Assembly: GCA_005805305.1 (NCBI GenBank)
Contig: SYMW01000221.1
Coordinates: forward strand, 1-37,064
Length of the DNA: 37,064 nt
DNA from: Verrucomicrobiales bacterium
GTDB taxonomy: Bacteria; Verrucomicrobiota; Verrucomicrobiia; Limisphaerales; F1-80-MAGS106
Reading direction: 5' to 3'
Made by a program: the position numbers and the translations under genes. Of this stretch, positions 33,581-36,228 are shown piece by piece (positions within the stretch are counted from its first letter, which is position 1; every line of letters begins with the position of its first letter). The notes under the pieces were generated by a model. The model was not told where the DNA came from and did no database searches. It saw only the letters and a list, made by a program, of their open reading frames with translations.

Positions 33581-33584
33581 TGTC

Positions 33585-33895
33585 AGACCTCAGAATCTCT
33601 GAGGCAAGTTGTGAAAAAGAATTGAGTGTTCGTTTCCCGCAAAACAACGCCCTCTCCCCATCGGATGGGGCGAGGGAGCTGGTAGCAGTGAGGATTTCAA
33701 CCTTAAGACGGCAGTTGAACCTCGTGGAGATTTGCTAAAGCCTGGATGAGAAAGATTTGACGAAGATCGAGGCGTATCCTTTATGGATCTGGTGAGTGAT
33801 TCGGAAGAATTGTATCGCCAGGATCTTGCGAAGATTCGCCAGGGGCACCAGCCGTTTTAAGGTTCAAGGAAATGGAAAACGATTTGTTGGCAACG
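33585..33895. repeat. Interspersed repeat, copy A (split by a MITE-like insertion)
   Basis: The copy begins AGACCTCAGAATCTCTGAGG and ends GATTTGTTGGCAACG. It matches 36072-36228 over most of its length (for example AAAGAATTGAGTGTTCGTTT and CCCCATCGGATGGGGCGA). It differs by scattered substitutions, a 12-bp gap near CGCCCT, and a 162-bp insertion at 33701-33862. The start is a small palindrome, CCTCAGA/TCTGAGG. Confidence 0.8.
33701..33862. mobile_element. 162-bp MITE-like insertion with TIRs and 5-bp target duplication
   Basis: The left end CCTTAAGACGGC (33701-33712) and the reverse complement of the right end, CCTTAAAACGGC (33851-33862), agree at 11 of 12 positions. TTCAA flanks both sides (33696-33700 and 33863-33867). 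The related repeat at 36072-36228 carries the uninterrupted sequence GATTTCAAGGAAATGG, which is the expected empty site with one TTCAA. There is no transposase gene, so movement would need an enzyme supplied elsewhere. The interior contains a short open frame at 33783-33860. Confidence 0.82.
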
Positions 33896-36012: not shown

Positions 36013-36071
36013 GTGCAGAGGTTCAAAGTCTCAGGGCTGAGAATGTCTGGGGTCATTTGTGAAAAAGACTT

Positions 36072-36228
36072 AGACCTCAGAATTTCTGAGGCAATTTGTG
36101 ATAAAGAATTGAGTGTTCGTTTCCCTCAAAGCAACGCCCTTTCCACGTGACTTCTCCCCATCGGATGGGGCGAAAGAGCTGGTTGCAGTGAGGATTTCAA
36201 GGAAATGGAAAGCGATTTGTTGGCAACG
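36072..36228. repeat. Interspersed repeat, copy B (uninterrupted)
   Basis: This is the second copy of the repeat at 33585-33895, without the MITE-like insertion. It begins AGACCTCAGAATTTCTGAGG, a near-perfect palindrome, and ends ATTTGTTGGCAACG. The 35 bp just before it (about 36040-36071) look like a further degenerate partial copy (GTCATTTGTGAAAAAGA compared with GCAATTTGTGATAAAGA). No gene is accepted between 36013 and 36261. Confidence 0.8.

Follow-up and report, generated by a model that had tools for sequence, protein, structure and literature searches.

A 162-bp MITE family with IS1380-like ends in the genome of a Verrucomicrobiales bacterium

Short bacterial elements that lack a transposase gene and carry terminal inverted repeats include the TIMEs, which are linked to Tn3, and MITEPye1, which is linked to IS1182. 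Like the element described here, they generate target duplications, fold into stem-loops and are presumed to be mobilised in trans (PMC4133298, PMC11578231). They differ from it in being tied to other transposon families and in their low copy number. In the literature searched on MITEs and IS1380, no passage mentions an IS1380-linked MITE family.

The IS1380 member ISEcp1 has CCTAGATTCTACGT as its IRL (PMC7864471) and generates a 5-bp duplication, TATGA (PMC2887853). The helper candidates described below likewise have ends starting with CCT and 5-bp duplications, whereas TATGA falls outside NTNAN, the motif of the helper and MITE branch. Given this misfit, NTNAN may be a feature of the IS1380-like branch. 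In contrast to members of the IS1380 family, the MITE itself encodes nothing.

A gene-less insertion in an interspersed repeat

The original prediction for the window, the whole stretch of 37,064 nucleotides that was analysed, was a 162-bp element with 11/12-matching termini and TTCAA on each side, and all of these features could be read directly at positions 33696-33867. The element spans 33701-33862 on the + strand, is an imperfect palindrome without a transposase gene, and has the termini CCTTAAGACGGC and GCCGTTTTAAGG, which match at 11 of 12 positions. Its left terminal inverted repeat, CCTTAAGACGGCAGTTG (33701-33717, + strand), corresponds to the family consensus CCTTAAAACGGCAGTTG, and its right one, CACCAGCCGTTTTAAGG in + strand letters (33846-33862, - strand), to the consensus CAACTGCCGTTTTAAGG. 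The two 5-bp copies of TTCAA, at 33696-33700 and 33863-33867, conform to the 5-bp NTNAN duplications found across the family. We confirmed that 33701-33862 is a real gene-less mobile element, or MITE.

The MITE interrupts one copy (copy A) of an interspersed host repeat, the left part of which lies at 33583-33700 and the right part at 33863-33895, both on the + strand. A second copy (copy B, 36072-36228, + strand) is uninterrupted; its junction reads GATTTCAAGGAAATGG, with a single, intact TTCAA at 36196-36200. The predicted 2.5-kb spacing between the copies and the undisturbed junction in copy B were correct. As an empty site, copy B shows the junction without the insert, although it is a paralogous copy of the repeat and not the pre-insertion locus itself. 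In 1.36 Mb of the window's genome, 12 host-repeat stretches, including copy B, cross the junction without an insert, with TTCAA at the junction in some and other letters, such as GTGAA, elsewhere; the 162 bp are thus not common to all other copies of the repeat, as they would have to be for the prediction to fail.

Two genomes of the same genus, G001 and G002, keep the two genes flanking the insert in synteny and so allow an orthologous comparison. Between the alignable stretches of these genes there are 122 and 156 bp, compared to ~517 bp in the window, and the interval lacks both the MITE and the host repeat. Arrival in the window lineage is a simpler reading than parallel loss. Multiple copies, exact ends, 5-bp duplications, and paralogous as well as orthologous empty sites bear out the claim of direct evidence for transposition.

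In some copies, one boundary of the host repeat is a TCAGACCTCAGAATTTCTGAGG-like sequence and the other is TTTTCTGAGGTCTGAAG (33583-33895 and 36031-36228 in the window; L063 17745-17915); judging from these boundaries, the repeat may be a palindromic mobile element in its own right. We also noted a partial tandem duplicate of the first 40 bases of copy B ahead of that copy.

Copies and target sites in the window's genome

A BLAST search with the element against the window's assembly (4.56 Mb, 82% complete) gave 40 scored hits among 347 candidates. The genome contains 26 copies with exact paired ends, so the prediction also survives its second refuting condition, the lack of any other genomic copy with these ends. 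Among 80 contigs picked solely by their number (0.988 Mb), we found 60 MITE hits, 34 of them full length, which extrapolates to ~277 copies, ~157 full length, in the 4.56-Mb assembly. About 39 of 61 full copies are exactly 162 bp long, and the family termini form 17-bp consensus inverted repeats inside a longer imperfect palindrome. Across 89 distinct full copies, divergence from the consensus averages 9% (2.5-18%) and is spread about evenly along the element.

The flanks of the 61 full copies document target duplication. Identical 5-bp flanks were present for 20 copies, compared to 2.0 in shuffled pairings, and 36 copies had at most one mismatch; there was no excess of matching flanks at 7-10 bp in the same set. 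The target motif NTNAN was found in 48 left and 50 right flanks, against a background of 4.5%. If both flanks drifted as the elements did, we estimate that ~39% of duplications (0.91^10) would be expected to be intact; 33% were. The variation among copies looks like near-neutral decay after insertion. The family therefore shows the features of a MITE: it is short, dispersed and multicopy, lacks a transposase gene, and has terminal inverted repeats and target duplications. It is a new family of an ordinary kind with its type of helper identified, and through it a very abundant verrucomicrobial repeat can be assigned to one particular branch of transposases, with ends and targets exactly defined.

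Two arrangements of nested copies were noted. A head-to-tail pair in G002 (L228 1501-1821) has one MITE inserted in TTTAA at the terminus of another. At L070 8963-9399, a MITE of the 162-bp family is interrupted by other repeats, one of which has the inverted ends TGTGCCGTTCACGAATT and is a candidate for a further element family.

IS1380-like helper candidates

The CCT ends and the 5-bp duplication led us to search for PF13701 transposases. Matches were found in 29 of 58 genomes; the window's genome, 82% complete, gave none, so its helper may have been lost. When an alignment of three transposases served as the query, a relative at 1e-30 was present in 33 of 320 genomes of the order. The IS1380-like elements of the order are 1.71-1.73 kb long, encode a PF13701 transposase and have the recurrent terminus CCTAAAAACGGCAGTT, which differs by one base from the MITE terminus CCTTAAAACGGCAGTT: 15 of the 16 terminal bases are in common, and position 4 is mostly A in the IS and T in the MITE. 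Four intact elements carry exact 5-bp NTNAN duplications, namely L084 (from G015; a complete IS of 1714 bp with CCTAGAAACGGCAGTT at both ends and TTCAC on each side), L118 (GTCAT), L120 (TTCAT) and L122 (TTTAA). In G001, which is of the same genus and among the 33 genomes with a relative, we found one near-complete transposase and several CCTAAAAACGGCAGTT-type ends.

Members of the IS1380 family have DDE residues with a Y-x2-R-x3-E-x6-K signature. In the three-sequence transposase alignment, Y376, R379, E383 and K390 are invariant, as are the candidate aspartates D174 and D253, and by inspection we take these as the putative catalytic signature residues. The helper-candidate ends begin with CC and are accompanied by 5-bp duplications, as expected for this family (4-5 bp). 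The three transposases pass Pfam PF13701 (90.9, 72.8 and 82.1 bits; cut-off 34.7). NCBIfam IS1380 is their best family, yet they miss its cut-off (154.6, 138.6 and 115.7 against 180 bits), pointing to a divergent branch that we therefore name "IS1380-like".

We did not detect a transposase of the IS1380-like branch in the MITE-carrying genomes G000 (the window's genome), G002 and G031, and the carrier G144 was not among the 1e-30 matches across the 320 genomes. The PF13701 hits of G031 are fragments, and such ends were absent at the single locus read there. Conversely, G001 carries the IS but is nearly free of the MITE. The interiors of the MITE and the IS show no clear similarity. Loss of the helper and a gap in fragmented assemblies cannot be told apart as reasons for its absence from MITE-rich genomes. 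An IS with the same termini had been anticipated: relatives, including one of the same genus, have it with near-identical termini and the same type of duplication, but it was not found in the window's genome. On contigs C198 and C26, that genome encodes IS1634- and ISAs1-family transposases, unlinked to MITE ends.

From the shared termini and target sites, we conclude that the MITE is non-autonomous and that an IS1380-like insertion sequence very probably supplied the transposase that mobilised it in trans. This enzyme would recognise termini of 16-17 bp that follow CCTWAAAACGGCAGTTG and insert the element at NTNAN targets, giving rise to the 5-bp duplication. Such a transposase presumably moved the window copy, and the helper may since have been lost from the window lineage or be missing from the assembly.

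A real MITE could instead belong to a different mobilising family, for example IS1634, with the match to the IS1380-like ends a coincidence. The window's genome does have an IS1634-type transposase and no IS1380-like one of the MITE-end branch. However, the DDE_Tnp_1 (PF01609) transposases of G000, G002, G031 and G144 all lack these flanking ends, and there is no exact inverted repeat of at least 12 bases around the gene at the IS1634 locus. Chance does not plausibly explain agreement in 15 of the 16 terminal bases as well as in target motif and duplication length, and we consider a helper of another family very unlikely. We regard as more improbable still that the 162 bp belonged to the host repeat ancestrally and were precisely excised from copy B. 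Some MITEs have half a host repeat on one side only (L071, L206, L169, L176), joined at the same TTCAA as in the window, which would fit such an origin; such halves would also result if one element inserted into another or if dispersed MITEs recombined. Against it, the sample contains the 12 uninterrupted host-repeat copies, the host repeat is absent from most MITE flanks, and the orthologous locus of G001 and G002 has neither component.

There remains the question of whether the element is retained for a function, as a structured RNA or a regulatory hairpin, and is not a mobile-element relic. As RNA, the consensus folds strongly (-80.7 kcal/mol, z -9.4), while the window copy folded as single-stranded DNA gives z -2.6. 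Across the 89 copies, however, 89.1% of pair cells are paired, compared to 88.6% with shuffled partners, and the 43 double changes, although above the shuffled mean of 29.7, stay below the shuffled maximum of 46. Since pairing is barely above that of the shuffles, the element seems to have started out with its hairpin, which does not look maintained at individual sites. Conservation is roughly even, without clear codon periodicity, and the element has no Rfam match, leaving almost no room for a retained RNA function. An internal reading frame was also discarded: the element is partly protein-like, but its substitutions do not follow a clear codon periodicity. Trans mobilisation of a MITE by an IS1380-like transposase remains our reading of the locus.

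Shared ends around different hairpins

The pattern CCTNNAAACGGCAGTT was found in 55 of the 320 genomes of the order, while a reversed control gave 0-2 matches per genome and strand. Around sampled ends, paired short elements were present in G007, G027, G039, G083, G104, G117, G144, G199, G200, G262, G265 and G280, most of them with 4-5 matching duplication bases and with lengths mostly of 162-191 bp (some from 144 to 294 bp). This sample consists of ends listed by the pattern search and is not a census, and some of its elements are related (G262 and G265; two from G144).

One family of interiors, in G002, G144, G199, G200 and also G031, is homologous to the window MITE. Compared to the MITE consensus, the other interiors score at or barely above interior-shuffle controls and fall into separate groups: G262, G265 and G085 with AACCACAGATGAACAC-like arms, G039, G104 and G118 with CACGAAACACACGAA-like arms, G007 with CGCTAATCTTCGCTAAT arms, and G083 alone. 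Elements with the same ends and unrelated hairpins were located at L259 490-655, L274 567-732, L283 528-718, L286 427-604, L254 564-739 and L307 1494-1683. Among the interiors first tested, 11 of 13 had z < -3 relative to dinucleotide shuffles, compared to 7% of 60 random 130-base control segments.

It is conceivable, though on balance doubtful, that one IS1380-like lineage serves short elements across the order, with only the 16-bp ends and NTNAN in common and unrelated hairpins (the AACCACAGATGAACAC and CACGAAACACACGAA types) swapped in. If so, mobility or tolerance would favour a hairpin and a length of mostly 160-190 bp, and IS1380-like ends would carry some of the anonymous hairpin repeats in genomes as passengers. 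This class with shared ends and swapped hairpins is the more interesting lead and is partly worked out. Elements with the same ends around unrelated interiors form a natural experiment on what a transposase requires of a MITE and what it will accept, and they provide a way for at least part of the anonymous hairpin repeats to move. We dropped a link between AACCACAGATG-type hairpins and GxxExxY or IVS proteins, which the literature searched did not support.

A related transposase is encoded on a Polaromonas plasmid (L308, CP087967.1) and is 47.5% identical to a verrucomicrobial one. The corresponding IS1380-like element, at L308 1370-2999, has related but imperfect ends with TTAAA on each side. 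Beside it, at L308 3357-3590, lies a second, 234-bp pair of similar ends.
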